DNA of 64,000 bases, taken from positions 186,001-250,000 of the forward strand of contig NZ_JAGQDG010000006.1 of NCBI RefSeq assembly GCF_018069865.1. Reading direction: 5' to 3'. The position numbers and the translations under genes were made by a program. Of the stretch, positions 27,107 through 64,000 are shown piece after piece. The first letter of the stretch is position 1. Every line of letters starts with the position of its first letter. The stretch comes from Ideonella paludis (lineage in GTDB: Bacteria > Pseudomonadota > Gammaproteobacteria > Burkholderiales > Burkholderiaceae_C). Below the pieces are notes generated by a model that saw nothing but the letters and a program-made list of their open reading frames with translations, did no database searches and was not told the DNA's origin.

Positions 27107-27220
27107 CTAAAGGCAACGCTGTGCCTGTGTGAGTGACTGAATTTGGGGACATTTGGGACGCTTTTCTGCGCATCATCCAAGGGGCGCTTGCCTAGCATCT
27201 GGGGAAAGCGAATTCTCCCC

Positions 27221-33659: not shown

Positions 33660-33927
33660 GTTGTGATCCTTTTTGTGCGACATGAAAGGCCTCCTCTCGA
33701 GGCGGTGCGCAATTCTAGGAGCCGCCAGCAGCCGCCCCACCCCAGGGGCTGCGCCGGAGTTGGCAATCCGCCACGCCTTTCAAAAGCGCTGGCCGCAGGC
33801 CTGCAGCGCTGGCCGTGGCGCAGAAACACGGGGCTCAGCGGGCGCTCATTCGCGCTTTAGGCCCCTCAAGTTGGCGGTCTACTGAGGCCAGCAACTCTGA
33901 CCGGGGGCTTTGCTGCCCTTGCATGCC

Positions 33928-41057: not shown

Positions 41058-41070
41058 CAAAGGGTGCTCC

Positions 41071-42072
41071 TTAGGCGGCCAGGCGCTGCCGTGCGCGCTG
41101 GGCAATTTGTGCCTCTAGCGTGGCCAGGCAGGTGTAGCTCTCTTGCAAAAAGGCTTGGCGGTGGTCTTCAATCCACTGCCGGTAGGCGGCAAAGCCTTCG
41201 GCCATGCGGGCGTGGTCCACCATGGCCTCGCCAATGCGGGCCAGCACCTGGGGCACGCACAGGGTGTGGCGCTCGTCAAACTTGTAGTCGGGGCCAATGG
41301 GCACGTCTACCTCGTTGCCCGCGCTGCCTTGGGTGTTGGTGATCACCACGCAGCCGCACAAAGCGGCCTCACGCGGGATGCGGTCTCGCCCGGGGTGCGG
41401 GCCGAAATCGACATACACCTTAGAGCGGCCCAGCAACTGCGCCACCTCGGCCGGGCTCATGTTTTCAATCGGCACCCACTGGATCTCGGCCGGCGAGGCC
41501 GCCATCAGTTTCTGCGTGAACTCCAGCCCCTTCTTGGGGTTGTAGGCCACGATGTTCTGCTTCTCGCCACCGCGCAGCGCGCGCGCGCGCTCCACAATCT
41601 CGTCGCGCACATAGTCCGTCAGCATCAGAGCCTCGGCCCCCTGGCGCGCCACAAACTGCCGCGCATATTCAGACTGTGCAAAGTGGACCACGCCAAAGCG
41701 TGGGTCAAACACAAAGTCCAGCGGGCCACGCTGCCCGGCCGGCATCTTCTGCGCCTGGCGCATGGCCTCGTTGCGCACCGCAAAGTGCTCCACGCTCAGC
41801 CACCACAGCGCCCGCGTGGCGTGCCGCAGCTCTAGCAATTGCAGCGTGCCCGTCTCTGGCACCACCACCACGCTGTCTGGTGCATCCACGATGTCGCGCA
41901 CCACCCGCGGCCGGTACATCTTGAACACCGCCGGTGTGGGGTCTGGGTCGTCCTCCGGCAAATACACCATGGCCATGTCGTAGCCCAGGCGCTGCCCGGC
42001 GTCGACAAACTGGTGCAGGGCCTCCGGCCCCCCGGTGACAGATGAAGCTGGGCACAAGACATGGACTTTCAT
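41071..42072 (-). CDS. glycosyltransferase-like protein
   Basis: 333 residues. The opening MKVHVLCPASSVTGGPEALHQ is typical of GT-B-fold enzymes and of polysaccharide-locus proteins. A C-terminal nucleotide-sugar-like region carries GRSKVYVDFGPHPGRDRIPREAALCGC, equivalent to the E-x7-E type region of GT4-like enzymes, followed by VVITNTQGSAGNEVDVP. No transmembrane segment. It is the first gene of a two-gene minus-strand operon with the unrecognised 494-residue protein. A role in surface-glycan or glycoprotein assembly is likely, but the donor and acceptor are unknown. Confidence 0.65.
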   Translation of the reverse strand: MKVHVLCPASSVTGGPEALHQFVDAGQRLGYDMAMVYLPEDDPDPTPAVFKMYRPRVVRDIVDAPDSVVVVPETGTLQLLELRHATRALWWLSVEHFAVRNEAMRQAQKMPAGQRGPLDFVFDPRFGVVHFAQSEYARQFVARQGAEALMLTDYVRDEIVERARALRGGEKQNIVAYNPKKGLEFTQKLMAASPAEIQWVPIENMSPAEVAQLLGRSKVYVDFGPHPGRDRIPREAALCGCVVITNTQGSAGNEVDVPIGPDYKFDERHTLCVPQVLARIGEAMVDHARMAEGFAAYRQWIEDHRQAFLQESYTCLATLEAQIAQRARQRLAA

Positions 42073-43094: not shown

Positions 43095-43188
43095 ACCTAC
43101 GCTTACTCATTGGACATAAGTTGAAACATCACAAACATGCAGGTTAAACCGATTCGTTCGGTTGCAAATATTTAATATTGGAGATGAA

Positions 43189-49208: not shown

Positions 49209-49667
49209 TCAGCCCCCTGCCCGCCACTCCAGCACTTCGTCACCGTGCCCGTCCACCTCGCCCGTGCTGCGCCAGCCCAGGTGGCGGTAAAAGCCGTATG
49301 AGCGCACCTGTGGGTCGGCCGAGCAGGCCAAGAACAAGCGCTGGTGCCCCTGCGCTTGCAGCAGCGCCATCACTTGGCGCAGTAGCGCCTGGCCTATGCC
49401 CTGCCCTTCAAAGCCCGGCAGCAGGGCCAGCACCACCACTTCGCCGCTCTCCAGGCTGCCAAAGCCATAGCCCACCATCTGGCCGTCGCACTCGGCCATC
49501 ACGCCCTGCAGCACCCCGGCGCGGATATCTGCCGCCCAGCTCTCCGCAGTGATGCCCAAGGCCGCCAAGCGGGCCGGGCTGATGGCGTTCTCGCGGGTTT
49601 GGCCACGCAGGCGGATGTAGTCCTCTGCGCGCTCTGGCGGGGCGGGGGCGTAGCGGAGGGTGTTCAT
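49209..49667 (-). CDS. GNAT-family N-acetyltransferase
   Basis: 152 residues. The acetyl-CoA-binding motif reads ALLPGFEGQGIGQALLRQV (G-Q-G-I-G), followed by LFLACSADPQVRSYGFYRHLG. Substrate unknown. It lies downstream of, and is insulated by a terminator from, the giant repeat gene. No relation to the upstream acetyltransferase at 48.2 kb beyond the fold. Confidence 0.88.
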   Translation of the reverse strand: MNTLRYAPAPPERAEDYIRLRGQTRENAISPARLAALGITAESWAADIRAGVLQGVMAECDGQMVGYGFGSLESGEVVVLALLPGFEGQGIGQALLRQVMALLQAQGHQRLFLACSADPQVRSYGFYRHLGWRSTGEVDGHGDEVLEWRAGG

Positions 49668-49712
49668 GGGGCGGGCCTCTGTGGCCCGGAGTGTAGAGGC
49701 CAGCCCCCAAGG

Positions 49713-49742
49713 AAAAAAGCCGCCAGCTTGCGCGGCGGCTTT
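49713..49742 (-). terminator. intrinsic terminator of the first giant repeat gene
   Basis: On the minus strand AAAGCCGCC / GGCGGCTTT form a 9-bp stem with a 9-nt loop, followed by a run of T residues (AAAAAA on the plus strand at 49713-49718). It lies about 50 nt after the stop codon of the giant gene, exactly where a terminator is expected. Confidence 0.85.
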
Positions 49743-49794
49743 CGTGGGGCGTGCCTGCGCAGCCGTGCTGGCGACGCACAGACCCCGTGGAGGC

Positions 49795-52700
49795 TTAGAT
49801 CAACACCTGTCGGCGCAGCGCCTCGTCGTCCAGCAAGCTGGCCAGGCTGGGCGCTGCCAGGGCCGCAGCCGGCGCGGCTTGGGCCACGCTGGCGGCTTGG
49901 GCGCTGTCTTGCAGCAGGCCTTCGGCCGGGGCGGCCAGCAGCTCGCCCAAAGCGGGTGCTGGGGCTTGCTCACCCTTGGCAAACCACACGTCGGCCATGG
50001 CGTGGGTGCTGCCGTCGGCGGTGGTGTAGTCGGACACCAAGCCCAGCAGGTTGCCGTTGTTCACCTCGGTGCCGGCCGCAGCCTGCAGGTTCAGGCTGGT
50101 GATGCCCAGCTCGGTCAAAGACTTCAGCTCGCCAGCGTCCGTCACGCCGTTGCTATTGCCGTCCACCCACACTTGCAGTTGGTTCCAGTTGGCGTCAGCG
50201 CTGCTGAGCATGTGGTCGCCGTTGCTGTCTTCCCAGCGCATGGCTTCATAGCCGTCGCCCGCGCGTTGGCCTTGGGCGTTGTGCGTGCCGATGCCAAACA
50301 GCTCGCGGCCGTCGTTGATCAGCCCGTCGCCGTTGCGGTCCATCACCAGCAGGCCGTCGTTCGCGCCCACCCAGCCGGTTTGGCGGGCGGTGCCGGTGGC
50401 CATCACGTCAAAGCTCACGCCCTCCGCCGCGGCCAAGGTTTGGATGCCGTTGCCGTCCAGGTCCAGCACGATGGGCGTCGCCAGCATGTAGGTGTTGAGC
50501 TGGGCCGTGTTCATGGCCGCCACGTCTTCGCCCTCAAAGGCGCCGATCTGCGTGGTGGTCATGGCCGCAATGTCGGCGGTCTCCAGGCCGGCGATCTGGT
50601 CGGTGGTCAGGGAGACGATCTGCTCGGTGGTCAGGGCGCGCGCCTGGGCGGTGCTCAGGGCCGCGATCTGGCTGGTTTGCAGGGCCTGGAACTGGTCGGT
50701 GCTCAGTGCCGCAATCTGGGCTGTGCTCAGGTTGGCCACTTGCCCGCCTTGCAGGGCTTGGATGTCGTCTGTGGCCAAGGCGGCGATCTGCGCCGTGCTC
50801 AGCGCGCGCAGCGCCACCGTGCTCAGGCTTTGCACTTGGTCGGTGCTCAGGGCGACGATCTGGTCGGTGGTCAAGGCGGCCATGCTGGCTGTGCCCAGGG
50901 CTCGCAGGTCGGCCGTCTCCAGGGCGCCGATTTGGTCGGTGGTCAGGCCCGCGATCTGCGCCGTGGTCAGCGCAGCGGCTTGTGCGGTGCTCAGGGCTTG
51001 GATGCCGTCGGTGCTCAGGGCGGCCAGCGCCTCGGTGGTGAGGGCCCGAATGGACGCCGCACCCAGGGCCGAGAGATCCGCCGTGCCCAGCGTGGCCAGG
51101 TGGTCCGAGGTCAGGGCCGCGACTTGGGTGGTGGTCAGGGCCGCAAACTGCGCCGTGCCCAGGGCGTCCAGTTGGTCGGTGGACAAGGCGGCAATCGCTG
51201 CCGTCGTCAAGGCCCGCAGGTTGACCGTGCCCAGCGCGGCTATGTCGGCCGTCTCCAGCGCCGAGACTTGCTCGGTGGACAAGGCAGCCACTTGCGCGGT
51301 GGTCATGGCCGCCACTTGGGCGGTGCTCAGGGCCGCCACGCCATCACTGGTCAGCGCGGCCACTTGGGCCGTGCTCAGGGCCTTGATGTTGGCCGAGCCC
51401 AGGGCGGCGATGTCGGCGGTGTCCAGGCCGGCAATCTGCGCCGTGGTCAGGGCCACGGCTTGGGCCGTGGTGAGGGCGGCCATCTGGGTGCTGGTCAAGG
51501 CGCCCAGTTGGTCGGTGCTCAGCGAGGCCACTTGGCTGGTGGTCAGCGCCGCCACTTGGGCCGTGCCCAGCGCAGCCATTTGGTCCGTGCCCAGGGCTGC
51601 CAGTTGCGCGGTGCTCAGTGCCTTCACGTGGGTCACGCCCAGCGCGGCCAGGTCGGCGGTTTCCAACGCGGCCACTTGGGCCGTGGTCAGGGCCGAGGCT
51701 TGGGCGGTGGTCAGCGCGGCAAACTGAGCCGTGGTCAGGGCATTGAGCTGCGCGGTGTCCAGCGCGGCCACTTGGGCCGTGGAGAGCTGGGCCACTTGCG
51801 TGGTGCTCAGGGCGGTGACCTGGCCCGTGCCCAGGGCATTGAGCTGGGCCGAGCCCAGGCTTTGGAGCTGGGCCACCGTCAGGGCCCGCAGGTCAGCGGT
51901 CTCGATGGCAGCCACTTGGTCGGTGCTCAAGGCCGCAACCTGTGTGGTGCTCAGCGCTGCCACTTGAGCGGTGGTCAGGGCTTGCACATCGGCGGTGGTC
52001 AGGGCCACCAGTTGCTCGGTGCTCAGCACTCGCAATTGCGTGATGCTCAGGGCTGCGGCTTGTGCGGTGGTCAGCGCGGCCATTTGTTCAGAGCTCAGCG
52101 CAGCGACTTGCGCCGTGCTCATGATCTTGAGGTCGGCGGTCTCGATGGCGGCCACTTGGTCGGTGCTCAGCGCTGCCACGCCAGCAGTGGTCAGGGCCAG
52201 CACTTGGGTGGAGCTCAGAGCCGCCACTTGGCTGGAGCTCAGGCCCGCCAAGGCGTCGGTTTGCAGCGCAGCGATGGCGGCGGTGCCCAAGCGAGCCAGG
52301 TCGCCCGTCTCGAAGGCCGCCACCTGGTCGCTGGCCAGGGCCGCCGCCTGGGTGCTGGTGAGCACCGCGGCTTGGGCGCTGGTCAGCGCCGCGATCTGGT
52401 CGCTGGTCAGCGCGGCCACAGCGGCCGTGCCCAGGGCCTTGACGGCTGCAGTGCTCAGCACCGCAAAGTCCGCCGTCTCCAAGGCCGCGATTTGCGCGGT
52501 GGTCAGGCTGGCCGCTTGCGCGGTGGTCAGCACCGCAGCTTGGGCGGTGGTCAGGGCGTTGAGGTTGTCGGTGCTGAGGGCCGAGACTTGGGCCGTGCTC
52601 AGGGCCGCCACTTGCGCATTGGTCAGTGCGCTCATTTGCGAGGTCAGCAAGGCATTGAGCTGCTGCGAGCCCAGTGCCGCCATTTGCGCCGTGCTCAGCA

Positions 52701-55700
52701 CGCGCAGGTCCTGAGTTTCCAGGGCCGGCATTTGGTCGCTGGCCAAGGCACCCACTTGTGCGGTGCTCAAGCCGGCCACTTGGCCCGTGGTCAGCGCCGC
52801 CACCGCATCGGTGCTCAGCGCGGCCACTTGGGCCGAGCTCAGGCCTTTGAGGCCCAAGGTGCTGATGGCGGCGACGTCCTCAGAGGTCAACTCCGCCACT
52901 TGCTCGGTGGTCAACGCAGCCAATTGCGCCGAGCCCAGCAGCGCGAATTGCGCGGTGCTCAGGGCGTTCAGGCTGTCGGTGCTGAGGCCGGCCATTTGCG
53001 CCGTGGTCAAGGCCGTGACTTGGCTGCTGGAGAGCGCGGCAATCTGGGCCGTGCCCAGCGCATTGAGTTGGTCCGAAGCCAGCGCGCGGATCTGGGCGGT
53101 GCTCAGGGCGCGCAAGTCTGCGGTTTCGAGCACGGCCATTTGGTCGGTGCTCAGCGCCGCCACTTGGGCGGTGGTCAGGCCAGCGGCCTGGGCGGTGGTG
53201 AGCGCGGCAATCGCGCTGGTGGACAGCGCCGCCACCTGCTCGGTGCCCAGCGCCTTGAGCGTGTTGACAGCCCAGGCGGCCAGGTCGGTGGAGACCAAGG
53301 CTGCCGCTTGCTCGGTGGTCAGCGCCGCAGCCTGGGCCGAGGTCAGCGCGGCCATTTGGCCAGTGCCCAGGGCATTGAGCGCGTCGGTGCTCAAGGCGGC
53401 CACTTGCGCGGTGGTCAGGGCCACGATCTGGCCGGTCGAGAGCGCGGCCAGTTGCGTGCTGGTCAAGGCATTGAGCTGGTCAGAGCCCAGCGCCGCCACT
53501 TGGGCGGAGGTCAGCGCGCGCAAGTCAGCGGTCTCGATGGCGGGCATCTGGCTGGTGCTCAGCGCGGCCACTTGGGCGGTGGTCAGCGCGGCGACTTGCA
53601 GCGTGGTCAAGGCGGCCATCGCATCGGTGCTCAGCGCCGCCACTTGCTCGGTGCTCAAGCCCTTGATGCCGGCCACGCTGATGGCGGCCACATCGTCGGA
53701 CGTCAGCGCCGCGACTTGGCCCGTGGTCAGCGCCGCCAACTGGGCCGAGCTGAGCTGGCTGAACTGCTGGGTGCTCAGCGCGTTCAGGTTATCGGTGCTC
53801 AGGCTGGCCATTTGCGTGGTGCTGAGCGTGTTGATCTGCGTGCTGCTCAGCGCCCCCATTTGCGCCGTGCCCAGCGCATTGAGCTGCTCTGAGGCCAAGG
53901 CGCGGATCTGCGCACTGGTCAGTGCGCGCAGGTCGGCCGTCTCCATCGCAGGCATTTGCGTGCTGCTGAGCGCCGCAATCTGGGCGGTGGTCAGGCCGGC
54001 CGCTTGCGCGGTGGTCAGCGCGGCCACGGCGCCTGTGGACAAGGCCGCCACTTGTGCCGTGCCCAAGGCTTTGAGGGTGTTGACCGACAAGGCGGCCAGG
54101 TCGGCCGCTTCCATGCCGGCCGCTTGTTCGGTGGTCAGGGCAGCGGCTTGAGCCGTGGTCAGCGCAGCCATCTGGCTGGTGTTCAGTGCGTTCAGCGCAG
54201 CGGTGGTCAAGGCCGCCACTTGCGCGGTGGTCAGGGCGATGACTTGGCCGGTGGTGAAGGCCGCCATCTGGGTGCTGGTCAGGGCGTTGAGCTGGTCTGA
54301 GCCCAAGGCAGCCACTTGCGTGGCCAGCAGCGCGCGCAGGTCGCCCGTCTCAATGGCTTGCACCTGGGCGGTGGTCAGCGCGGCCACCTGGGCGGTGTTC
54401 AGGCCGGCCACCTGGGTGCTGGTCAGCGCGGCAATCACCTGGGTGGAAAGCGCCGCCATCTGGGCCGTGCCCATGACGTTGAGCGTGCTGACGGCCAAGG
54501 CCGCCACGTCGCCAGGCTCCAGCGCGGCCATTTGGTCGCTGCTGAGGGCCTGCCACTGCGCACTGGTGAAGACGCCCATCTGCGTCGGGCTCAAGGCCTG
54601 GACTTGGGCGGTGGTCAGGCCCGCCACCTGGTCGGTGGTCAGGGCGCTGACTTGCTGGGTGGCCAAGGCCGCCACTTGCGCGCTGTCCAAGGCGCCCAAC
54701 TGATCCGTGCTCAAGGCCCGCAAAGCGGCGCTGCCCAAGGCCCGCAGGTCCAGGGTTTCCATGGCCGCCAGTTGCGTGGTGGTGAGGGCCGCCACTTGCT
54801 CGGTGCTCAGCGCCGCCACCTGGGCCGACGAGAGCGCCACGAATTGCGCCGTGCTCAGCTCGGCCACGGCTGCCGTGCTCAAGGCCCGCAGCGCAGCGGT
54901 GCCCAGCACGGCCAGGTCGGCGGTCTCCAAGCCGGCGACTTGGCTGCTGGTCAAGGCGGCCCATTGCTCAGTGCCCAGGCCTGCCGCTTGGGCCGTCGTC
55001 AACGCGGCCACCTGGGCCGTGGTCAAGGCGGCGATCTGGCCGCTGCTCAGGGCCCGCAGCGTGGCCGTGCTCAGCGCGGCCAGGTCGGCGGTTTCCAGGG
55101 CCGCCACTTGGTCGGTGGTCAGCGCGGCGGCTTGGCTGCTGCGCAGGGCCGCAAAGTGGGCGGTGCCCAGGGCATTCAAGTCTTCGGTGACCATGCCGGC
55201 CAACTGGGCCGTGCTCAGGCCCGCAGCTTGTGCCGTGGTCAGGGCGCCAAACTGGGCAGTGCTCAAGGCATTCAGCGCCTCGGTGCCCAAGGCACCCAGT
55301 TGCGCCGTGCTGAGCACGGCCAAGTCAGCCGTTTCCAGCGCAGCGACTTGGTCGCTGGAGAGCGCGGCGACTTGCGCCGTGGTCAAGGCACGGGCCTGGG
55401 CGGTGGTCAGCGCGGCAACTTGGGCCGTGGTCAGCTCGGCAATTTGCTCGGTGCGCAGTGCAGCGAGCTGCACCGTGCCCAGCGCCGCGACTTGGGCGGT
55501 GCTCAAGGCCGAGACCTGGTCCGTGGTCAGGGCCTGAATCTGGCGTGTAGAGAGGGCTAGCAGGTCGGCGGTTTCCAGCGCTTGGACCTGGGTGGTGGTC
55601 AGCGCTGCCATGTGGTCGGTGCGCAAGGCGGCGGCCTGGGCCGTGCTCAACACGCCAATTTGCGTGGTGCTGAGCGCGGCCACAGCGTCCGTCTGCAGCG

Positions 55701-57735
55701 CCGCGATGTGCGCGGTGCTCAACACCGCCAAGTCGGCGGTTTCTAGGCCCGCCACTTGGTCGCTGGTGAGTGCGGCGGCATGCACCGTGGTCAGCGTGGA
55801 CCATTGGCCGGTGGTCAAGGCGGCAATGGCGTCGCTGCTGAGCGCCGCGAACTGCGGGCCGCTCAGCGCACGCACCACCGTGGCGCCCAGGGCGGCCACA
55901 TCGGCAGTCTGCAGCGCGGCCAACTGCTCGGTGGTCAAGGCGGCAGCTTGGGCGCTGGTCAGCGCAGCAAACTGGCTGGTGCTGAGGGCATTCAGCGCAT
56001 CGCTGCTGAGGCCGGCCACCTGCTCGGTGCCCAGCGCGTTGACTTGGCTGGTGGCCAGGGCCGCGACTTGGTCCGTGCCCAGTGCATTGAGCTGGGCAGT
56101 GGAGAGGGCCCGCAACTGGGCGGTGGTCAGCGCCCGCAAGTCGGCGCTTTCAATGGCGGCGACTTGGTCGGTGGTCAGCGCGGCCACTTGGGCCGTGGTG
56201 AGGTTGGCAAACTGCGCGGTGGAGAGCGCCCGCAGATCGTCCGTCTCCATCGCAGCCATCTGGCCGGTGGTCAACGCGCGCACTTGGGCGGTGGTCAGCG
56301 CGGCAGCTTGGGCGGTGCCCAGGGCGGCCACGTCGTCGGTGCTCAGGGCCGCCACTTGGGCCGTGGTCAGCGCGGCCACTTGCTGGGTGCGCAGGGCCGC
56401 CACATTGGCGGTGCCCAAGGCGGCCAAAGATTCGGTGCTGATGGCGCGCACGGCCGCTGTGCTCAGCGCGGCCACAAAGCTGGTGTCCAGCGCCGGGGCT
56501 TGGGTCGAGTTCAGGGCTGCGGCATGGGCCGTGGTCATGGCCGCCACTTGGGCCGTGGTCATGGCATTGAGCTGGGCTGTGTCCAAGCCCGCCACTTGGG
56601 CCGAGGTCAAGCCCAGCACCTGGGCGGTGCTCAGGGCCGCCACGCCAGCGGTGGTCAGGGCATTGAGCTGGTCGGTGCTCAGGCTGGCCAAGGCGCGCGT
56701 GCTCATGGCGCGCAGGTCGGCGGTCTCAATGGCCGCCATCTGGTCGGTGGTCAGCGCCGCAGCCTTGGTGTTGGTCAGCGCGACGAACTGCGCGGTGGTC
56801 AAGGCCTGCAGGTCGTCCGTCGTCAGGCCCGCCACTTGGGTGGTGCTGAGGGCATTGATCTGGGTGGTGCTCAAGCCGGCAATCTGGCTGCTGTCCAGCG
56901 CGGCCAGTTGGTCGCTGGAGAGGGCTTGCAGCGCTGCGGTCTTGAGCGCGTTGAGCTGCGCGGTGCTGAGCGCCGCCATTTGGTCCGTGGTGAGCGCCGC
57001 AGCCTGGGCCGAGGACAGCGCTTGCACCTGCGCCGTGCTGAGGGCGGCCACCGCCTCGCTCGACAAGGCCGCCACTTGCGCGCTGCCCAGGGCCATCAAA
57101 GCGGCCGTGCTGAGCACGCGGACATCCGCCGTCTCCAGGGCATTGACCTGGGCCGTGGTCAGGCTGGCGACTTGCGCCGTGGTCAGGCCAAACACCTGAG
57201 CAGTGGTCAGGGCTTGCACCCCGTCCGTGGAGAGGGCCGCAATCGAGGCCGTGCTCAGATTGCGCAAGGTATTGACCTGCAGAGCGGCCACATCAGCCGT
57301 CTCCAGGGCCGCCAGTTGAGCGGTGGTCAGGGCGGCAGCTTGGGTGGAGCTGAGCACCGCAAACTGCGCGGTGCTCATGGCGTTGAGGCTGTCGGTGGTC
57401 AGCGCGGACAACTGGGCCGTAGTGAACTTGCTGACCTGGGTGTTGTTGAAGGCAGCGATCTGCGCGCTGTCCAGCGCGTTGAGCTGCTCGGTGGTCAGCG
57501 CCGCAATGCCCGCCGTGGTGATGGCGCGCAAGTCAGCCGTTTCCATGGCCGCGATCTGCGTGGTGCTCAGCAAGGCCAGGTTTTGCGCGGGGATCACAGC
57601 GACCTGAGCCGTGGTCAGGGCGGCAATCTGTGCCGTGGAGAACGCAGCCCAGTCTTCGGTGGTGAGGCGGCTGATCACCAGCGTGGACAGGGACGCAATC
57701 TGCGCGGTACTCAGATTGGGAATGATGGTCGCCAT
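49795..57735 (-). CDS. giant octapeptide-repeat protein with Ca-loop C-terminus, probable type I secreted adhesin
   Basis: 2646 residues. ATG with GGAG 9 nt upstream; no Sec signal peptide, and the repeats begin almost at once (PNLSTAQIASLS). Residues 1 to about 2410 are some 300 octads of consensus AAL[ST]TxQ[VIL]. Roughly every seventh or tenth octad is the marker AALETADL. The C-terminal 230 residues carry four acidic loops: VLDLDGNGIQT, DRNGDGLINDGRELFG, DSNGDHMLSSAD and DGNSNGVTDAGEL, of which the last fits an EF-hand loop exactly. This module is typical of calcium-binding ends of type I secreted proteins. The chain ends ASLLDDEALRRQVLI, the likely secretion signal. No cysteine seen. Export through the 29-35 kb type I system is an inference. 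A close paralogue lies directly upstream. Confidence 0.92.
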   Translation of the reverse strand: MATIIPNLSTAQIASLSTLVISRLTTEDWAAFSTAQIAALTTAQVAVIPAQNLALLSTTQIAAMETADLRAITTAGIAALTTEQLNALDSAQIAAFNNTQVSKFTTAQLSALTTDSLNAMSTAQFAVLSSTQAAALTTAQLAALETADVAALQVNTLRNLSTASIAALSTDGVQALTTAQVFGLTTAQVASLTTAQVNALETADVRVLSTAALMALGSAQVAALSSEAVAALSTAQVQALSSAQAAALTTDQMAALSTAQLNALKTAALQALSSDQLAALDSSQIAGLSTTQINALSTTQVAGLTTDDLQALTTAQFVALTNTKAAALTTDQMAAIETADLRAMSTRALASLSTDQLNALTTAGVAALSTAQVLGLTSAQVAGLDTAQLNAMTTAQVAAMTTAHAAALNSTQAPALDTSFVAALSTAAVRAISTESLAALGTANVAALRTQQVAALTTAQVAALSTDDVAALGTAQAAALTTAQVRALTTGQMAAMETDDLRALSTAQFANLTTAQVAALTTDQVAAIESADLRALTTAQLRALSTAQLNALGTDQVAALATSQVNALGTEQVAGLSSDALNALSTSQFAALTSAQAAALTTEQLAALQTADVAALGATVVRALSGPQFAALSSDAIAALTTGQWSTLTTVHAAALTSDQVAGLETADLAVLSTAHIAALQTDAVAALSTTQIGVLSTAQAAALRTDHMAALTTTQVQALETADLLALSTRQIQALTTDQVSALSTAQVAALGTVQLAALRTEQIAELTTAQVAALTTAQARALTTAQVAALSSDQVAALETADLAVLSTAQLGALGTEALNALSTAQFGALTTAQAAGLSTAQLAGMVTEDLNALGTAHFAALRSSQAAALTTDQVAALETADLAALSTATLRALSSGQIAALTTAQVAALTTAQAAGLGTEQWAALTSSQVAGLETADLAVLGTAALRALSTAAVAELSTAQFVALSSAQVAALSTEQVAALTTTQLAAMETLDLRALGSAALRALSTDQLGALDSAQVAALATQQVSALTTDQVAGLTTAQVQALSPTQMGVFTSAQWQALSSDQMAALEPGDVAALAVSTLNVMGTAQMAALSTQVIAALTSTQVAGLNTAQVAALTTAQVQAIETGDLRALLATQVAALGSDQLNALTSTQMAAFTTGQVIALTTAQVAALTTAALNALNTSQMAALTTAQAAALTTEQAAGMEAADLAALSVNTLKALGTAQVAALSTGAVAALTTAQAAGLTTAQIAALSSTQMPAMETADLRALTSAQIRALASEQLNALGTAQMGALSSTQINTLSTTQMASLSTDNLNALSTQQFSQLSSAQLAALTTGQVAALTSDDVAAISVAGIKGLSTEQVAALSTDAMAALTTLQVAALTTAQVAALSTSQMPAIETADLRALTSAQVAALGSDQLNALTSTQLAALSTGQIVALTTAQVAALSTDALNALGTGQMAALTSAQAAALTTEQAAALVSTDLAAWAVNTLKALGTEQVAALSTSAIAALTTAQAAGLTTAQVAALSTDQMAVLETADLRALSTAQIRALASDQLNALGTAQIAALSSSQVTALTTAQMAGLSTDSLNALSTAQFALLGSAQLAALTTEQVAELTSEDVAAISTLGLKGLSSAQVAALSTDAVAALTTGQVAGLSTAQVGALASDQMPALETQDLRVLSTAQMAALGSQQLNALLTSQMSALTNAQVAALSTAQVSALSTDNLNALTTAQAAVLTTAQAASLTTAQIAALETADFAVLSTAAVKALGTAAVAALTSDQIAALTSAQAAVLTSTQAAALASDQVAAFETGDLARLGTAAIAALQTDALAGLSSSQVAALSSTQVLALTTAGVAALSTDQVAAIETADLKIMSTAQVAALSSEQMAALTTAQAAALSITQLRVLSTEQLVALTTADVQALTTAQVAALSTTQVAALSTDQVAAIETADLRALTVAQLQSLGSAQLNALGTGQVTALSTTQVAQLSTAQVAALDTAQLNALTTAQFAALTTAQASALTTAQVAALETADLAALGVTHVKALSTAQLAALGTDQMAALGTAQVAALTTSQVASLSTDQLGALTSTQMAALTTAQAVALTTAQIAGLDTADIAALGSANIKALSTAQVAALTSDGVAALSTAQVAAMTTAQVAALSTEQVSALETADIAALGTVNLRALTTAAIAALSTDQLDALGTAQFAALTTTQVAALTSDHLATLGTADLSALGAASIRALTTEALAALSTDGIQALSTAQAAALTTAQIAGLTTDQIGALETADLRALGTASMAALTTDQIVALSTDQVQSLSTVALRALSTAQIAALATDDIQALQGGQVANLSTAQIAALSTDQFQALQTSQIAALSTAQARALTTEQIVSLTTDQIAGLETADIAAMTTTQIGAFEGEDVAAMNTAQLNTYMLATPIVLDLDGNGIQTLAAAEGVSFDVMATGTARQTGWVGANDGLLVMDRNGDGLINDGRELFGIGTHNAQGQRAGDGYEAMRWEDSNGDHMLSSADANWNQLQVWVDGNSNGVTDAGELKSLTELGITSLNLQAAAGTEVNNGNLLGLVSDYTTADGSTHAMADVWFAKGEQAPAPALGELLAAPAEGLLQDSAQAASVAQAAPAAALAAPSLASLLDDEALRRQVLI
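50500..57720 (-). repeat. 24-bp (octapeptide) tandem repeat array, gene 1
   Basis: About 300 degenerate copies of a 24-bp unit in one frame. Higher order is visible: marker octads (ETADL-type) alternate at distances of 10 and 7 octads, giving a 17-octad unit of 136 residues (408 bp), and variants alternate so that the best self-match is 34 octads (816 bp). For example, the VNTLKAL variant recurs with GTGTTGAC at 53261 and 54077, exactly 816 bp apart. Confidence 0.9.
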
Positions 57736-57855
57736 GGGCGCAGCTCCAAAATAGGTGCGGCTCCGCCCAACACGGGGGAGCCTCTGGGCCAGCGTTCAGG
57801 GCAGCGGCGTGCGCAGGCGGCAGGCCTCGGCCCTGAATCTGGTCCGTCCCAAGGA

Positions 57856-57882
57856 ACTTCGGCGGTAGAGCGCCAGACTTGA
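57856..57882 (-). promoter_or_regulatory. candidate sigma-28 (FliA) promoter of the giant repeat gene
   Basis: On the minus strand TCAAGTCT, an 11-nt spacer and GCCGAAGT match the flagellar sigma factor consensus (TAAAGTTT-N11-GCCGATAA) at the key positions. It lies about 120 nt upstream of the ATG in the only intergenic region available. Identified by eye; the match at the end of each box is imperfect. Confidence 0.35.
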
Positions 57883-57985
57883 GGACAGACTGCCGCGTCT
57901 GGCGCGCCAAGTTGTGCCTCAATGTGTGGCCGCATCACGCGCACAAGCGCAGCGCTGCCGCACGCCCGCTTGGGCGCGCGCACCC

Positions 57986-58013
57986 GCCACCACCGGGTGG
58001 CCCCGGCGGTGGC
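57986..58013 (-). terminator. GC-rich hairpin after the second giant gene
   Basis: GCCACCACCGGG pairs with CCCGGCGGTGGC (one G-T pair) around a 4-nt loop, 16 nt after the stop of the second giant gene in its direction of transcription. There is no T-run after it, so it may stabilise or attenuate the transcript rather than end it; the next gene in the same direction is the paralogue. Confidence 0.4.
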
Positions 58014-58028
58014 TTGGCTTGTCTCGGC

Positions 58029-61000
58029 TTAGATCAGCACTTGGCGGCGCAGGGCTTCGTCGTCCAGCAGGCTGGCCAGGTTGGGCGCAGCCAGGGCAGC
58101 CGGCGCGGCGGGGGCCACGACGGCGGCGGCTTGGGCCGTGTCTTGCAACAGGCCCTCTGCGGGCGCAGCCAGGAGCTCAGACAAGGCTGGTGCTGGGGCT
58201 GCGCCTTGGGTGAACCACACGTCGGCCATGGCATGGGTGCTGCCATCGGCGGTGGTGTAGTTGGAGACCAATCCCAGCAGGTTGCCGTTGTCGACCTCGG
58301 TGCCGACTTGCGCTTGCAGGTTGAGGCTGGTGATGCCCAGCTCGGTCAGCGACTTCAGCTCGCCGGCATCGGTGACACCGTCGCTGTTGCCATCCACCCA
58401 GACTTGCAGCTTGCTCCAGTTGGCATCGGCCGCGTCGAGCATGTGATCGCCATTGCTGTCTTCCCAGCTCATGGCCACATAGCCGTTGCCGGCGCGTTGG
58501 CCCTGGGCGTTTTGAGTGCCGGCCCCGAACAGCTCACGGCCGTCGTTGATCAGGCCGTCGCCATTGCGGTCCATCACCAGCAAGCCGTCGTTGCCGCCCA
58601 CCCAGCCGGTCTGGCGCAAGGTGCCCGTGGCAGCCACGTCAAAGGCCACACCGTTGTCGACCGACAGTGTCTCGATGCCGTTGCCGTCCAGGTCCAACAC
58701 CATGGGGGTGATGGCGAAGTAGGCGTCCAGTTGGCTGGCGTTCATCGCGGCCACGTCTTCCGCTTCGAAGGCGGCTTGTTGGTCGCTGCTCAAGGCGGCA
58801 ATGTCGGCCGTCTCCAGGCCGGCGATCTGGCCGGTGGTCAGCGCCACGATTTGCTCGGTGGTCAGCGCCCGGGCCTGGGCCGTGGTGAGCGCGGCGATCT
58901 GCGCGGTGCCCAAGGCCTGGAACTGGTCCGTGGTCAGCGCCGCCACCTGCGCGGTGGTGAGGTTGGCGATATGCCCGCCTTGCAGGGCTTGCACATCGTC
59001 GGTGGCCATCGCAGCGATCTGGCTGGTGCTCAGGGCGCGCAGGGCTGTGCTGCTGAGGCTGTGGACTTGCTCGGTGGTCAGGGCCACGATCTGGTCGGTG
59101 GTCAGGGCCGCGAAGGCCGCTGTGCCCAAGGCCCGCAGATCCGCAGTCTCCAAGGCCGCCACCTGGGTGCTGGTCAGGCCCGCAATCTGGGTGGTGGTCA
59201 GCGCGGCCACTTGCAAGGTGCTCAGCGAGGCGATGTCATCCGTGCCCAGCGCGCTGAAGGCTTCGGTGCCAATGGCGCGAATCGAGGCGGTGCCCAGCGC
59301 AGCCAAGTCGGCGGTGCTGATCGTGGCCAAGTGCTCAGAGGTCAGGGCCGCGATCTGCGCCGTGCTCATGGCGGCGAACTGCGTCGTGCTCAAGGCATCA
59401 ACCTGCGCGGTGGACAGCGCTGCAATCGCATCGGTGCTCAGAGCGCGCAGGTTCACCGTGCCCAAGGCGGCCATGTCAGCCGTCTCCAGCGCAGCCACTT
59501 GCTCGGTGGACAGCGCCGCGACTTGCGCGGTGGTCAGCGCCGCCACTTGCGCGGTGCTCAGGGCGCCCACAGCGGTGCTGGTGAGGGCGGCGATTTGAGC
59601 GGTGCTGAAGGCCTTCACATTGGCCGCGCCCAGGGCGGCCAGGTCGGCGGTGTCAAAGCCGGCAATCTGGTCGGTGGTCAGGGCCACGGCCTGCGCGGTG
59701 GTCAATGCAGCCACTTGGGTGCTGCTCATGGCCACCAGTTGGTCGGTGCTCAAGGCCGCCACTTGCGTGCTGGTCAACGAGGCCACTTGCGCGGTGCCCA
59801 GCGCGGCCACCTCGTCGGTGCTCAAGGCGGCCAGTTGGGCCGTGCTCAAGGCACGCAAGGCCAAGGTGTTCATCGCGGCCAGGTCAGCCGTCTCCAAGGC
59901 GGCCAACTGCGCCGTGGTCAGGGCCATGGCTTGCGCCGTGGTCAAGGCGGCGAACTGGCTTGTGGTCAGGGCGTTGACTTGGGCTGTATCCAGTGCGGCC
60001 ACCTGGGCGGTGGACAGCGACGCCACTTGCGTGGTGCTCAGCGCCGCCACTTGGGCCGAGCCCAGGGCGTTGAGCTGCGTCGAGGTCAGGCTCTGCAATT
60101 GCGAGGCCGACAAGGCCAGCAGGTCGGCGGTTTCCAGGGCCGCCACTTGGTCGGTGCTCAGTGCAGCCACATGGGTGGTGCTGAGCGACGCGACTTGGGT
60201 GGTGGTCAGGGCCTGCACATCGGCCGTGCTCAGGGCCACCAGTTGCTCGGTGGACAAAGCGCGCAATTGCTGGGTCGCCAAGGCGGCGGCTTGGGCGGCG
60301 GTCAGCGAGGCCACCTGGTCGGTGGTCAGAGCCGCAATCTGGCCGGTGCCCATGGCCTTGAGGTCGGCAGTTTCAATGGCGCGGATCTGGTCGGTGCTCA
60401 GCGCGGCCACGGCGGTCGTGGTCAGGGCGGAGAGCTGGGTCGAGGTCATGGCCGCGACTTGGGTGGAGCTGAGGCCCGCCAGCGCGCCCGTCTGCAGCGC
60501 CGCAATGGCGGCGGTGGTCAACAGCGCCAAATCGTTGGTTTCAAGCGCGGCCACTTGGTCGCTGGACAGTGCTGCGGCCTGGGTGTTGGACAAAGCCGCC
60601 GCGTGCGCAGTGGTCAGTGCGGCCACTTCTGCCGTGGTGAGCGCAGCCACAGCGGCCGTGCCCAAGGCGCGCACCGCAGCGGTGCTCAGCGCCGCCAGGT
60701 CCGCCGTCTCCAGCGCGGCGATCTGCTCGGTGCTCAGGCCAGCGGCCTGGGCGGTGGTCATCACCGCAAACTGGGCGGTGGTCAGGGCATTGAGCTTGTC
60801 GGTGGTCAGGCCGGCCAATTGCGCCGTGCTCAGCGCGGCCACTTGCACCGTGGTCAGCGCCGCCATCTGGACGGTGCCCATGGCATTCAACTGCTCGGTG
60901 GACAGCGCCCGCAGCGCGGCCGTGCCAATGGCACGCAAGTCTGCGGTTTCGAGGGCCGGCATTTGGTCGCTGGTCAGCGCGCCAATCTGGGCCGAGCTCA

Positions 61001-64000
61001 GGCTCGCCACCTGCGCCGTGCTCAGGGCTTGCAGCGCATCGGTGGACAAGGCGGCCACACGGTCGGTGCCCAAGGCCACCACGGCGGCGGTGGTCAAGGC
61101 GGCCACATCACCGCTCTCCATCGCGGCCACTTGCTCCGTGGTCAGCGCAGCAGCATGCGCAGCCGTCAAGGCGCGGATCTGGTCGGTGGCCAAGGCGTTC
61201 AGGTTGTCGGTGCTCAGGCCCGCGACCTGGGCGGTGCTGAGGCTGGCCACCTGGGTGGTGCTCAGCGCCGCCATCTGGGCGGTGCCCAAGGCGTTGAGCT
61301 GCTCGGTGGCCAGCGCACGGATCTGGGCCGTGCTGAGGACGCGCAGGTCCGCTGTCGCCAAGGCGCTCATCTGGTCGGTGCTGATCGCCGCCACTTGCGC
61401 TGTGGTCAGGCCAGCGGCCTGCGCCGTGGTCAGCGCTGCGATGGCATCGGTGGACAAAGCGGCCACCTGGGCGGTGCCCAGCGCCTTGACCGTGTTGACG
61501 GCCATGGCGGCCAGGTCGGCCGTCTCCAGCGCGGCGGCTTGCTCGGTGGTCAGCGCAGCGCCTTGGGCGGTGGTCAGCGCGGCCATTTGGCCGGTGCTCA
61601 GGGCGTTCAGGGCGTCGGTGCTCAGCGCAGCGATCTGGGCCGTGGTCAAAGCCGCGACCTGGCTGTTGGAGAAGGCCGCCATCTGGGCGCTGGACAAGGC
61701 GTTGAGCTGCTCGGAACCCAGCGCGGCGACTTGCGCCGTGCCCAGGGCTCGCAGGTCAGCCGTCTCCAGAGCTGGCATTTGGTCGGTGCTCAGGGCCGCC
61801 GCTTGGGCGGTGCTCAGTGCAGCGGCTTGAACCGTGGTCAGCGCGACGATGGCGTCGGTGCTGAGGGCGGCCATGTGCTCGGTGCTCAGGCCTTTGAGGC
61901 CGTTGACGCTGATGGCTGCCACATCATCGGTGGCCAGTGCGGCCACTTGGTCGGTGCTCAGCGCGGCGAGCTGCGCCGAGCTGAGCAGGCCGAACTGCGC
62001 CGTGCTCAAGGCGTTCAGGTTGTCGGTGCTCAGGCCCGCCATTTGCGTGGTGGTGAGCGCGGCGACCTGGGTGTTGGTCAGCGCGGCCATTTGCGCGGTG
62101 CCCAGGGCGTTGATCTGCTCGGTGCCCAGCACCGCCAGTTGGGCGGCGGTCAGGGCGCGCAGGTCGGCGGTCTCCAGGGCCGCCACTTGGTCGCTGGTCA
62201 GCGCGGCGACTTGCGCCGTCGACAAGGCTTGCACATGCACGGTGCTGAGTGCCGCAATGTCGTCGGTCTCCAAGGCGGCGACTTGGTCGGTGCTGAGCTT
62301 GTTGACTTGGGCACTGCTCAGGGCTGCCACCTGCGCGGTGGTCAGGGCCGCCACTTGGGCCGTGGTCAGCGCTTGGACTTGGGTGCTGGTCAGGTTGCGC
62401 AGGTCGGCCGTCTCCAGGGCTTGGATCTGGTCGGTGGTCAACGCGGCCACTTGGGCCGTGGTCAAGCTCATGGCTTGGGTCGAGGACAGCGCGGCAATTT
62501 GATCGGTGGCCAAGGCGGCCAATGTCTCGGTGGTCAAGGCGGCCAGCGCGGCCGTGGTCAGAGAGGCCACGTCGGCCGTCTCCAAGCCGGCCACTTGGTC
62601 GCTGGTCAGTGCTGCCGCTTGCGTCGAGGTGAGCTGGGCCACTTGGGCCGCCCGCAGGGCCGTGATCTGCTCGGTGGTCAGCGCGGCCACAGCGTCGGTG
62701 GTCAAGCCACGGATGGCGGCAGAGCCCAAGGCCGCCACATCGGCCGACTCCATGGCCGCCACTTGGGCCGAGCTCAGGGCACCGGCTTGAGCGCCGGTCA
62801 GCACTGCCATTTGGGCCGTGGTCAGCGCGTTGAGTTGGTCGGTGCTGAGGCCCGCGATTTGGCCGGTGGTCAGGGCCGCCACCTGGGCATTGGTCAGGGC
62901 CACCATTTGCTCGGTGCCCAGCGCATTGATTTGCGCGGTTTGCAGCGCGGCAATCTGTGCCGTGCTCAAGGCCCGTAGGTCGGCGGTTTCAATGGCCGCG
63001 ACTTGGTCGGTCGTCAGGGCCGCCAGTTGGGCGGTGGACATCGCCACGAAATGCGCCGTGGTCAAGGCCTGCAGGTCGGCAGTCTCCAGCGCAGCGGCTT
63101 GGTCGGTGCTCAGAGCTTGAACCTGGGTGTTGGTCAGGGCGGCAGCCTGGCCCGCCGTCAGCGCAGCGACTTGCTCAGTCGTCAGCGCACGGATGGAGGC
63201 CGAGCCCAACTGGCGCAGGTCGGCGGTTTCGAGGGCTTGGATCTGGTCGGTGGTCAAGCTGGCCACTTGGGCCGTGGTCAGGCTGGCCGCTTGGGTGCCG
63301 GTGAGGGCTGCGACTTGCTGGGTCTCCAGCGCCGCCAGCGTGGCCGTGGTCAGGGCAGCCAGCGAGGCCGTGTTCAGCGCGGCGACTTGGGCGGTGCCCA
63401 GGCCCACAATCTGGTCACTGGTCAGTGCGGCGGCTTGGCTGCTGCTCAGCGCACCCGCTTGGGCCGAGGTCAGCGCGGCCAGCGACTCGGTGGTCATTGC
63501 GGCCACGGCCTCGGTGGTCAGGCTGCGCACCGCATTGGTGGACAGGGCTGCTACGTCGGCGGTCTCCAGCGCGGCGACTTGCGCGGTGCTGAGCGCGGCG
63601 GCCTGCGCCGTGGTCAGCGCCGCAAACTGCGCGGTGCCCAGGGCATTGAGGTTGTCGGTCGACAAGCCGGCCACCTGGGCGGTGGTCAGCGCCGCCACTT
63701 GCGGTGCACGCAGCGCAGCCATCTGATCGGTGGACAGCGCATTGAGCTGGGCGGTCGACAAGGCTTGAAGCTGAGCATTCGTCAGGGTGGCCAGGTCCGC
63801 CGTCTCCAGCGCAGCGGCCTGGTCGGTGGTCAGCGCTGCCACCTGCTCGGTGCCCAGCGCCATCACTTGGGTGGTGCTCAGTGCGCGCAGGTCGTCGGTC
63901 TCCAGCGCAGCGATCTGGGCGGTGGTCAGCGCCCGCAATTGCTGGGTGGTCAGGGCCACCATTTGGGCCGTGGTCAAGGCTTCGACTTGGCCGGTGGTCA
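58029..64000 (-). CDS. second giant octapeptide-repeat protein, N-terminus beyond window
   Basis: At least 1990 residues are visible; the octad pattern continues in frame through the last base (TGQVEALTTAQMVALTT), so the start lies outside. About 219 octads are visible, with the same ETADL-type markers and 10/7 spacing. The C-terminal domain is nearly the same as in the downstream paralogue: VLDLDGNGIETLSVDNG, DRNGDGLINDGRELFG, DSNGDHMLDAADANW, DGNSDGVTDAGELKSL, and the identical tail LDDEALRRQVLI. The two genes are therefore tandem duplicates whose ends are conserved while the repeats diverge. Predicted to be a calcium-dependent type I secreted surface or extracellular protein. The 293-bp gap to the paralogue contains a hairpin and a candidate promoter. 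Confidence 0.92.
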   Translation of the reverse strand, partial: TTGQVEALTTAQMVALTTQQLRALTTAQIAALETDDLRALSTTQVMALGTEQVAALTTDQAAALETADLATLTNAQLQALSTAQLNALSTDQMAALRAPQVAALTTAQVAGLSTDNLNALGTAQFAALTTAQAAALSTAQVAALETADVAALSTNAVRSLTTEAVAAMTTESLAALTSAQAGALSSSQAAALTSDQIVGLGTAQVAALNTASLAALTTATLAALETQQVAALTGTQAASLTTAQVASLTTDQIQALETADLRQLGSASIRALTTEQVAALTAGQAAALTNTQVQALSTDQAAALETADLQALTTAHFVAMSTAQLAALTTDQVAAIETADLRALSTAQIAALQTAQINALGTEQMVALTNAQVAALTTGQIAGLSTDQLNALTTAQMAVLTGAQAGALSSAQVAAMESADVAALGSAAIRGLTTDAVAALTTEQITALRAAQVAQLTSTQAAALTSDQVAGLETADVASLTTAALAALTTETLAALATDQIAALSSTQAMSLTTAQVAALTTDQIQALETADLRNLTSTQVQALTTAQVAALTTAQVAALSSAQVNKLSTDQVAALETDDIAALSTVHVQALSTAQVAALTSDQVAALETADLRALTAAQLAVLGTEQINALGTAQMAALTNTQVAALTTTQMAGLSTDNLNALSTAQFGLLSSAQLAALSTDQVAALATDDVAAISVNGLKGLSTEHMAALSTDAIVALTTVQAAALSTAQAAALSTDQMPALETADLRALGTAQVAALGSEQLNALSSAQMAAFSNSQVAALTTAQIAALSTDALNALSTGQMAALTTAQGAALTTEQAAALETADLAAMAVNTVKALGTAQVAALSTDAIAALTTAQAAGLTTAQVAAISTDQMSALATADLRVLSTAQIRALATEQLNALGTAQMAALSTTQVASLSTAQVAGLSTDNLNALATDQIRALTAAHAAALTTEQVAAMESGDVAALTTAAVVALGTDRVAALSTDALQALSTAQVASLSSAQIGALTSDQMPALETADLRAIGTAALRALSTEQLNAMGTVQMAALTTVQVAALSTAQLAGLTTDKLNALTTAQFAVMTTAQAAGLSTEQIAALETADLAALSTAAVRALGTAAVAALTTAEVAALTTAHAAALSNTQAAALSSDQVAALETNDLALLTTAAIAALQTGALAGLSSTQVAAMTSTQLSALTTTAVAALSTDQIRAIETADLKAMGTGQIAALTTDQVASLTAAQAAALATQQLRALSTEQLVALSTADVQALTTTQVASLSTTHVAALSTDQVAALETADLLALSASQLQSLTSTQLNALGSAQVAALSTTQVASLSTAQVAALDTAQVNALTTSQFAALTTAQAMALTTAQLAALETADLAAMNTLALRALSTAQLAALSTDEVAALGTAQVASLTSTQVAALSTDQLVAMSSTQVAALTTAQAVALTTDQIAGFDTADLAALGAANVKAFSTAQIAALTSTAVGALSTAQVAALTTAQVAALSTEQVAALETADMAALGTVNLRALSTDAIAALSTAQVDALSTTQFAAMSTAQIAALTSEHLATISTADLAALGTASIRAIGTEAFSALGTDDIASLSTLQVAALTTTQIAGLTSTQVAALETADLRALGTAAFAALTTDQIVALTTEQVHSLSSTALRALSTSQIAAMATDDVQALQGGHIANLTTAQVAALTTDQFQALGTAQIAALTTAQARALTTEQIVALTTGQIAGLETADIAALSSDQQAAFEAEDVAAMNASQLDAYFAITPMVLDLDGNGIETLSVDNGVAFDVAATGTLRQTGWVGGNDGLLVMDRNGDGLINDGRELFGAGTQNAQGQRAGNGYVAMSWEDSNGDHMLDAADANWSKLQVWVDGNSDGVTDAGELKSLTELGITSLNLQAQVGTEVDNGNLLGLVSNYTTADGSTHAMADVWFTQGAAPAPALSELLAAPAEGLLQDTAQAAAVVAPAAPAALAAPNLASLLDDEALRRQVLI
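58745..64000 (-). repeat. 24-bp (octapeptide) tandem repeat array, gene 2 (partial)
   Basis: The array continues to the window end with the same unit and hierarchy. Marker variants VNTVKAL and VNGLKGL lie 408 bp apart (GTTGAC at 61494 and 61902), which is exactly one 17-octad block. Individual blocks are similar to blocks of gene 1, for example the stretch containing RALATEQLNALGTAQ, consistent with block-wise duplication and exchange between the two genes. Confidence 0.9.

Follow-up and report, generated by a model that had tools for sequence, protein, structure and literature searches.

In the HMW1A/HMW1B/HMW1C system, a cytoplasmic enzyme of the GT41 family reportedly modifies a giant adhesin with N-linked sugars before its export by two-partner secretion (TPS). 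The serine-rich repeat glycoproteins of Gram-positives combine Ser/Thr-dense repeats with dedicated glycosyltransferases and a dedicated exporter, the accessory Sec system. Type I secreted adhesins of the LapA/SiiE type are very long repetitive chains with Ig-like beta domains and calcium, and LapA carries an N-terminal retention module. FlmG of Caulobacter, a tetratricopeptide-repeat (TPR) glycosyltransferase, is described as glycosylating the flagellins and as binding them through its TPR domain (PMC7591256). Here we analyze a stretch of 64,000 nucleotides from Ideonella paludis (the window; contig NZ_JAGQDG010000006.1, positions 186,001 to 250,000) that holds two tandem giant genes built of octapeptide repeats (octads), a GT41 glycosyltransferase gene and the genes of a type I exporter. 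On balance we favor, with moderate confidence, a reading in which Thr and Ser residues of the octads are O-glycosylated in the cytoplasm and the chain leaves by type I export to form a mucin-like helical fiber.

Both octad genes are open on the minus strand (Table 1), in the place given by an earlier sequence-only reading of this DNA. Gene 1 holds 302 octads and gene 2 holds 431, each array unbroken by insertion or deletion from the start to the C-terminal module. The figure of more than 13 kb of repeats given in that reading needs correction: the octads within the window amount to about 12.5 kb, and to about 17.6 kb if the part of gene 2 beyond the window is included. The window part of gene 2 begins at 58029 and its start codon lies outside the window (C19:244029-255146 in contig coordinates, where the window is G000:C19:186001-250000; G, C and L numbers are our handles for genomes, contigs and loci). 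Counted from the first ATG, the product of gene 2 has 3705 aa; counted from an internal Met that corresponds to the start of gene 1, it has 3677 aa. The octad consensus in both genes is [ST]-T-x-Q-[VIL]-A-A-L. Position 8 is L/M/I/F in 300 of 302 octads of gene 1 and in 430 of 431 of gene 2, and position 2 is Ser or Thr in 280 and 388, respectively. The identity at a lag of eight residues in gene 1 is 0.44, compared with 0.137 (maximum 0.157) in 1000 residue shuffles. The 17-octad block implied by the sequence-only reading is real: at a super-period of 17 octads the identity is 0.53 in gene 1 and 0.51 in gene 2, and at 34 octads it is 0.56 in both, whereas 300 shuffles of the octad order reach at most 0.473 and 0.472. 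Between the two genes dN/dS is 0.10-0.29 in 18 of 18 blocks, which cover residues 1-1088 and 1263-2585 of gene 1, with dS of 0.56-1.85; both genes thus look like selected proteins. The predicted masses are about 262 and 366 kDa, with a pI of 4.1 and no Cys in either product. Long antisense frames run on the plus strand (window 49660-53892 and 57879-62978), probably from the GC-rich codons of the repeats; these giant frames of 1410 and 1699 aa were taken for mirror frames and set aside.

Table 1 Features of the octad locus, in window coordinates
Feature	Position	Strand	Remark
Gene 1, whole	49795-57735	minus	2646 aa, open reading frame
Gene 1 octad array	50488..57735	minus	302 octads, register kept from the start codon onwards; PF20080 ALTTAQ
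Gene 1 C-terminal module	49981..50478	minus	predicted FrpC self-processing-module fold; Thr-Pro for the scissile Asp-Pro
Gene 1 linker and end	49795..49980	minus	low-confidence linker, C-terminal helix, hydrophobic end (...DDEALRRQVLI); candidate secretion signal
Gene 2 octad array, part in window	58719..64000	minus	part of 431 octads; 5146 further bases past the window end
Gene 2 C-terminal domain	58212..58709	minus	self-processing-module-like, with Thr-Pro
Gene 2 linker and C-terminal end	58029..58211	minus	last 16 residues as in gene 1
TPR + GT41 glycosyltransferase	27143..29104	plus	O-GlcNAc-transferase type; XcOGT nearest by sequence among solved structures
Type I secretion ABC transporter	29120..31654	plus	LssB subfamily TIGR03375, 777 bits vs cut-off 693
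HlyD-family periplasmic adaptor	31651..33036	plus	TIGR01843, 334 bits vs cut-off 209
Outer-membrane efflux protein	33910..35316	plus	PF02321; TolC model TIGR01844 64 bits, below cut-off 225
Gene without family assignment	39573..41105	minus	among fetched loci only in Ideonella L075/L076 (38-39% identity), behind the octad gene
Gene without family match	41071..42072	minus	shares 77% identity with the gene next downstream of the octad gene in Ideonella alba

The sequence-only reading could not place the octads in a known repeat family. A profile search assigns them to Pfam PF20080 (ALTTAQ), far over the curated cut-off of 26.4 bits, with 1949.8 bits in 91 stretches for gene 1 and 1482.3 bits in 65 stretches for the window part of gene 2. 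The search of the octad proteins against NCBIfam gave no match. Literature searches for "ALTTAQ" or PF20080 returned no paper on the repeat, as the PF20080 matches were off-topic by title; as far as these searches go, the family is known by name only. All PF20080-type matches listed for the own genome fall in genes 1 and 2. The family exceeds its cut-off in 35 of 150 genomes of the same bacterial family (own genome counted), and a phylum-wide draw holds the octad repeat at E<=1e-7 in 20 of 398 genomes. Octads also match 56 plasmid records, and the homologues in the ten examples shown are unannotated or named "hypothetical", "heme utilization" or "ICE nucleation" protein. A 272-aa octad block found no match at E<=1e-5 in 50,697 phage records, and a phage origin was rejected on that result. 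In several relatives the octad gene is split into adjacent or overlapping frames (L026, L027, L028, L029, L034 and others); this could reflect assembly error in the repeats, gene pairs or switching.

AlphaFold2, run on a block of 34 octads with an alignment of 26 half-overlapping blocks from the window, gives a confident all-helical model (pLDDT 96.4, pTM 0.86), in which each octad is one helix of 5-6 residues and no beta-strand is present. A structure prediction of 17-octad blocks had been proposed as a check by the sequence-only reading, and the outcome for 34 octads supports the strings of short capped helices envisaged there. We assign the N-cap to position 1, the start of the helix to position 2 and the capping-box Gln to position 4; position 1 is S/T/G/D/N in 69-96% of octads in the set of loci compared. 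A Foldseek comparison of the octad model with the PDB shows no global match among the best 50 of 343 matches. These are led by armadillo/importin proteins and by mesothelin, whose TM does not exceed 0.42 on the query and reaches 0.55 on one short target. By sequence, the octads match PDB entry 9zem (HeliScrew4, 120 residues) with E 4e-17. HeliScrew4 is probably a designed protein, judging from its name alone, and no paper was found in the literature under "HeliScrew". It shares the octad pattern and spacing, but differs from the window octads in that Pro replaces Thr at position 2 in 11 of the 13 octads of the aligned stretch.

The longest repeat is not the same in all octad proteins. The best long lag is 17 octads here and in some relatives and 24 or 44 octads in others; these lags, and the shorter ones of 7 and 10 octads, are near-multiples of 3.4. 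Periodograms over octads were computed for 23 octad proteins. A peak at 3.38-3.44 octads is the strongest in 15 of them and the second-strongest in four, one of which (L072) stays below its shuffle maximum. L029 and L037 have this peak in third place, at about their shuffle maximum or under it, and L074 and L203 show it weakly or not at all. Since proteins with differing long repeats have the 3.4-octad period in common, the octads appear to form a superhelix of about 3.4 helices (27 residues) per turn. The solenoid that the sequence-only reading offered as a further option is supported by inference from this period, and we hold with high confidence that the octad chain is a helical solenoid. 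If a pitch of about 1 nm per turn is assumed, chains of 302 and 431 octads would be rods of very roughly 0.1 micrometer.

The module that follows the octads matches the self-processing module of FrpC (PDB code 6sjw) with E 1.4e-35 by sequence. Its structure, predicted with an overall pLDDT of 81.6, matches 6sjw in Foldseek with a TM of 0.82 on the target, E 6.8e-19 and, over 172 columns, 45% identity. Residues of EF-hand-like loops are conserved, consistent with putative calcium binding; the calcium-loop C-terminal domain of the sequence-only reading is supported by prediction. In FrpC (6sjw/6sjx) an Asp-Pro bond is described as breaking upon calcium binding (PMC7078468). The octad proteins present the same fold and EF-hand-like loops, but the scissile Asp is replaced. 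In scans that accept any residue before Pro, and in which some proteins share genomes, all 16 octad proteins of one set and all 80 C-termini of another (T 55, S 25; from 74 of 79 fetched loci) have Thr or Ser there; a 17-row module alignment and one further alignment were picked for Ser/Thr before Pro and are no test of Asp loss. With its scissile Asp replaced, the module is thus probably a non-cutting version of the self-processing fold, and self-cleavage was rejected as a candidate function, there being no Asp-Pro. The loss suggests a second use of this fold. Giant paralogues in the own genome (C16, C22, C11 and C7; L011-L014) carry the module without octads, with cadherin/Ig domains in those scanned; the four that were read have Cys or Ser before Pro, never Asp.

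Of the 80 C-termini, 71 finish on two hydrophobic residues, often as PLI behind an acidic stretch, and so do two of the four own-genome paralogues read; Duganella-type ends differ. The "identical tails" claimed for genes 1 and 2 hold for the last 16 residues and not for the last 59, of which 47 match. RTX-type substrates are described as bearing uncleaved C-terminal signals (PMC3034196). Glycine/aspartate nonapeptide repeats of the RTX type are absent among the Pfam matches of the octad proteins up to E 1. A Pfam scan for N-terminal domains, covering gene 1 and the window part of gene 2, met no LapA-type retention module. The lack of a Sec signal stated in the sequence-only reading rests on inspection.

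The GT41 and exporter genes of the window point towards the octad genes. The GT41 product scores 261 bits with PF13844 and matches XcOGT with E 4e-86, compared with 23.8 bits for the N-glucosyltransferase model (cut-off 1000); by these scores it is OGT-like and not an N-glucosyltransferase of the HMW1C type. A His and a Lys that we take to be catalytic or UDP-binding in XcOGT align identically in the window enzyme, whose transfer activity is putative. Ten relatives of the same bacterial family carry the same genes in the same order 2.6-18.7 kb from their octad genes; the two sets of genes converge in nine relatives and share one direction in G056. The nearest GT41 of G046, at 19.5 kb, has a lower similarity (37%). 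A tblastn search (E<=1e-20) of the 30-63 kb fetched around the octad genes of 14 same-family genomes besides the window, some stretches ending at contig ends, recovers GT41 and HlyD in 11 each, ABC in 10 and the outer-membrane gene in 12, compared with 15 of 16 other window genes in none of the 14 and one in two. A close ABC (>800 bits, 57-69% identity) is found in 26 of the 34 other genomes that have the repeat above its cut-off and in 1 of the 115 remaining (Fisher p 6e-21), the latter including three with sub-threshold repeat matches; G008 has an intermediate ABC match of 642 bits. GT41 of any kind occurs in 82 of the 150 same-family genomes: 33 of 38 repeat-positive (own genome among them) and 49 of 112 negative (p 3e-6). 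Several same-family loci have genes for an FdtA-type isomerase and a hexapeptide acyltransferase between the octad gene and the exporter; we associate these genes, presumably, with dTDP-3-amino-3,6-dideoxy sugars. The type I secretion proposed by the sequence-only reading is supported by prediction, with exporter genes near octad genes in many genomes, and we judge type I export of the octad proteins to be very likely.

The association recurs with other genes of the same kinds. Non-orthologous ABC and HlyD genes (23-33% identity) and GT41 adjoin octad genes in Duganella-type genomes, Rhodoferax, Pseudomonas and Cereibacter. In the five genomes of the Duganella type and Rhodoferax read further, a different ABC/HlyD pair (25-28% identity) directly follows the octad gene, and GT41 lies no more than 30 kb away. 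The plasmid loci read, 4 of the 56 records, come from alpha- and gamma-proteobacteria, and all four stretches hold GT41: that of Pseudomonas asturiensis together with TolC-HlyD-ABC, and that of Cereibacter sphaeroides together with ABC, HlyD, rfb genes and sulfotransferases. The Cereibacter neighborhood is that of strain MBTLJ-20; the plasmid record of strain 2.4.1 has an equal octad score. In family f47 the octad gene, an ABC (27-28% identity) and GT41 (35-38%) lie within 20 kb in 6 of 8 loci, which were picked for an octad gene and GT41 on one contig; three other f47 stretches (L072-L074), mostly octad gene, yielded neither ABC nor GT41. Some f47 genomes (G252:C92, G213:C17/C29, G276:C153, G264:C379; L194, L205) have frames of 2462-3781 aa with several consecutive GT41 matches, and in G252 such a frame adjoins the octad gene.

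If GT41 modifies the octads, Ser/Thr residues that the fold does not require should track GT41. The octad pattern does not demand Thr at position 2, because natural octads and HeliScrew4 hold Pro or Ala there. Ser/Thr at position 2 or 3 is found in 78-100% of the octads of 34 loci with GT41 within about 30 kb, and in 11, 15, 36, 42, 78, 78, 81, 93, 96 and 100% in 10 loci without GT41 in view. The difference has a Mann-Whitney p of 0.003, and still of 0.003 with four left-out loci added, in a test that ignores kinship and selection. The window is represented by gene 1 alone, and L150 and L152, whose contigs carry GT41 in cis, enter as their longer stretches L188 and L190, counted as linked. Outside both groups stand L120 (99%, GT41 not placed), L147 (68%) and L146 (100%); L157 and L205 yielded no octads. 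Position 2 taken by itself is mostly Ser/Thr where GT41 is close, but mostly Ala, Pro or other residues in 4 of the 10 loci without GT41 in view, and the lowest four come from G055, G341, G532 and G058. Two of these, G341 and G532, are the two that lack GT41 in a set of 27 genomes. In G058, ABC and HlyD remain by the octad gene but the listed GT41 matches are 1.1 Mb distant; position 2 there holds Ser/Thr in only 25% of octads, Ala in 28% and Pro in 22%. G532, like it, has largely Ala/Pro. Pro takes position 2 in 58% of octads in G341 (L160/L204) and 49% in G055 (L203), near the HeliScrew4 pattern, with GT41 not in view. The linkage of GT41 and the pattern at position 2 are therefore what leads us to favor O-glycosylation of the octads followed by type I export.

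Several observations weigh against this reading. In the window the exporter is 14.5 kb away from gene 1, and GT41 directly follows a TPS pair (17760-27042) that may be its real partner here. The close ABC is missing in 8 of 35 repeat-positive genomes. The GT41-exporter pair lies about 430 kb from the octad genes in G133, 62 kb in G149, and on another contig in G028. No type I exporter was seen in the other two plasmid stretches, those of Rhodovastum (24.8 kb) and Rhizobium lusitanum (30.7 kb), both of which hold GT41. Among the position-2 data, G024 lacks GT41 at E<=1e-20 and yet has 81% Ser/Thr at position 2 or 3 (26 octads). G051, G048, G084, G133 and G028 have 78-100% without GT41 in view, the arrays being short in G051 and G048 and GT41 lying elsewhere in the genome in G133 and G028. 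Among the left-out loci, L032 (G149) has 98% and L072-L074 have 87-93%, and G493, with GT41 adjoining, has only 36% Ser/Thr at position 2, or 84% with position 3 counted. Neither the eight f47 loci nor the 34 linked loci are a random sample, and the Pfam model itself favors Thr at position 2. A two-octad period is the strongest in five proteins (L072, L074, L186, L196, L203). Finally, sugar-bearing chains would have to pass the outer-membrane channel.

The GT41 enzyme might instead serve the neighboring TPS exoprotein, as HMW1C does HMW1, or lipopolysaccharide or flagellin, and the octad fibers would then be type I secreted and unglycosylated. The place of the window GT41 gene (27143), directly behind the TPS gene (17760-25349, PF05860) and its ShlB partner (25333-27042), speaks for this. 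However, TPS and ShlB occur in none of the 14 same-family octad loci compared with GT41 in 11, the enzyme is far under the N-glucosyltransferase cut-off, and GT41 also adjoins the octad genes of the four plasmid loci; we regard this alternative as unlikely. The TPS/ShlB pair was rejected as a component of the system, not being conserved at the octad loci of relatives. The window GT41 might serve the exoprotein of this pair (2529 aa; ESPR, TPS, MBG and YDG domains) in addition to the octad proteins.

It is similarly improbable that Ser/Thr at positions 1 and 2 only cap helices or aid solubility, and that GT41 is linked because surface-glycan islands also hold adhesins. Position 1 is indeed N-cap-like, sugar-nucleotide genes are frequent at octad loci, and several loci without GT41 in view retain Ser/Thr at position 2. 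On the other hand, position 2 tolerates Pro/Ala in G341, G055, G532, G058 and HeliScrew4, and the close ABC hardly occurs outside genomes with octads. An ice- or surface-binding Thr face, as in ice-nucleation proteins, would suit a regular Thr every eight residues and the "ICE nucleation protein" annotation of some Cereibacter homologues. Ice-nucleation proteins are beta-solenoids; the annotation is probably automatic, the fold predicted here is helical and GT41 would be left unexplained, so that we consider this very unlikely. A leucine-rich repeat (LRR) can practically be dismissed: PF23952 LRR_EndoS scores 68.5 and 64.5 bits (cut-off 27.9) and weak PDB sequence matches to LRR proteins exist, yet these follow the periodic Leu, PF20080 scores far higher, the 34-octad model has no strand per repeat, and no LRR protein is among its best 50 of 343 structural matches.

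For the favored O-glycosylation and type I export, we envisage a three-part system in which octad chain, GT41 glycosyltransferase and type I exporter would together yield a secreted fiber. In the cytoplasm, the TPR-GT41 enzyme would put sugars on Ser/Thr of the octads, chiefly at position 2, which falls in the opening turn of the short helix. Guided by its C-terminal end, the chain would then leave in one step through the LssB-type ABC/HlyD/outer-membrane machine. Outside the cell, calcium would fold the self-processing-like module, from which no cutting is expected with the Asp replaced, and the octads would fold into a superhelix with about 3.4 capped helices to the turn, to give a sugar-covered rod. 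The repeats, predicted fold, period, gene linkage and loss of the scissile Asp come from computation, and we infer the sugar transfer, its sites, the export and the surface role. Glycosylation of the octads by the window GT41 is rather probable, a surface, adhesion or matrix role has about an even chance, and adhesion or a protective coat as the biological role are guesses. In its widest form the proposal is evenly poised: a portable alpha-/beta-/gamma-proteobacterial cassette for a new glycoprotein fiber, in which an OGT-like enzyme would add about one sugar per octad before type I export, giving a bacterial mucin on an alpha-solenoid, anchored or tipped by a non-cutting module.

Two minus-strand genes between the exporter and the octad genes (39573-42072) have no family in Pfam, NCBIfam or PDB searches; five other loci have 28-29% matches to the one at 41071..42072. 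OLD-like TOPRIM and FRG domains are encoded at 43162-47154, again between the exporter side and the octads. Both counterparts of the 39573-42072 genes in Ideonella alba are directly downstream of the octad gene, and 43162-47154 may be an insertion in the window, perhaps a defense island.

If the glycosylation reading is true, each chain would bear hundreds of sugars, and the system could explain part of the GT41 genes of the same-family genomes (82 of 150). PF20080 gains a testable biology of fold, exporter, modifying enzyme and residues, and one helix per octad would offer a simple programmable scaffold. Literature searches on giant, glycosylated or OGT-modified type I secreted proteins found nothing on point; by these searches, dense O-glycosylation of a type I secreted giant protein by an OGT-like enzyme would be new. 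The main text of a 2025 review of bacterial O-glycosylation does not contain the words GT41, OGT or type I secretion (PMC12645811).

Like the HMW1 system, the octad locus pairs a GT41-family enzyme with a giant exported protein, with glycosylation here a proposal; unlike HMW1, the enzyme is of the OGT type, the predicted route is type I secretion, and Pfam finds no TPS domain in the octad proteins, as the HMW1 substrate has. The serine-rich repeat glycoproteins differ in their export by accessory Sec, their enzymes and their lack of helical octads. The likeness to FlmG, as described, lies in a TPR-glycosyltransferase enzyme acting on Ser/Thr of an exported surface polymer, although the glycosyltransferase family of FlmG may differ from GT41 and flagellin leaves by the flagellar apparatus. 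With the adhesins of the LapA/SiiE type the octad proteins share the long repetitive chain, the predicted type I secretion and calcium, and they differ in that the octads of gene 1 start at residue 1.

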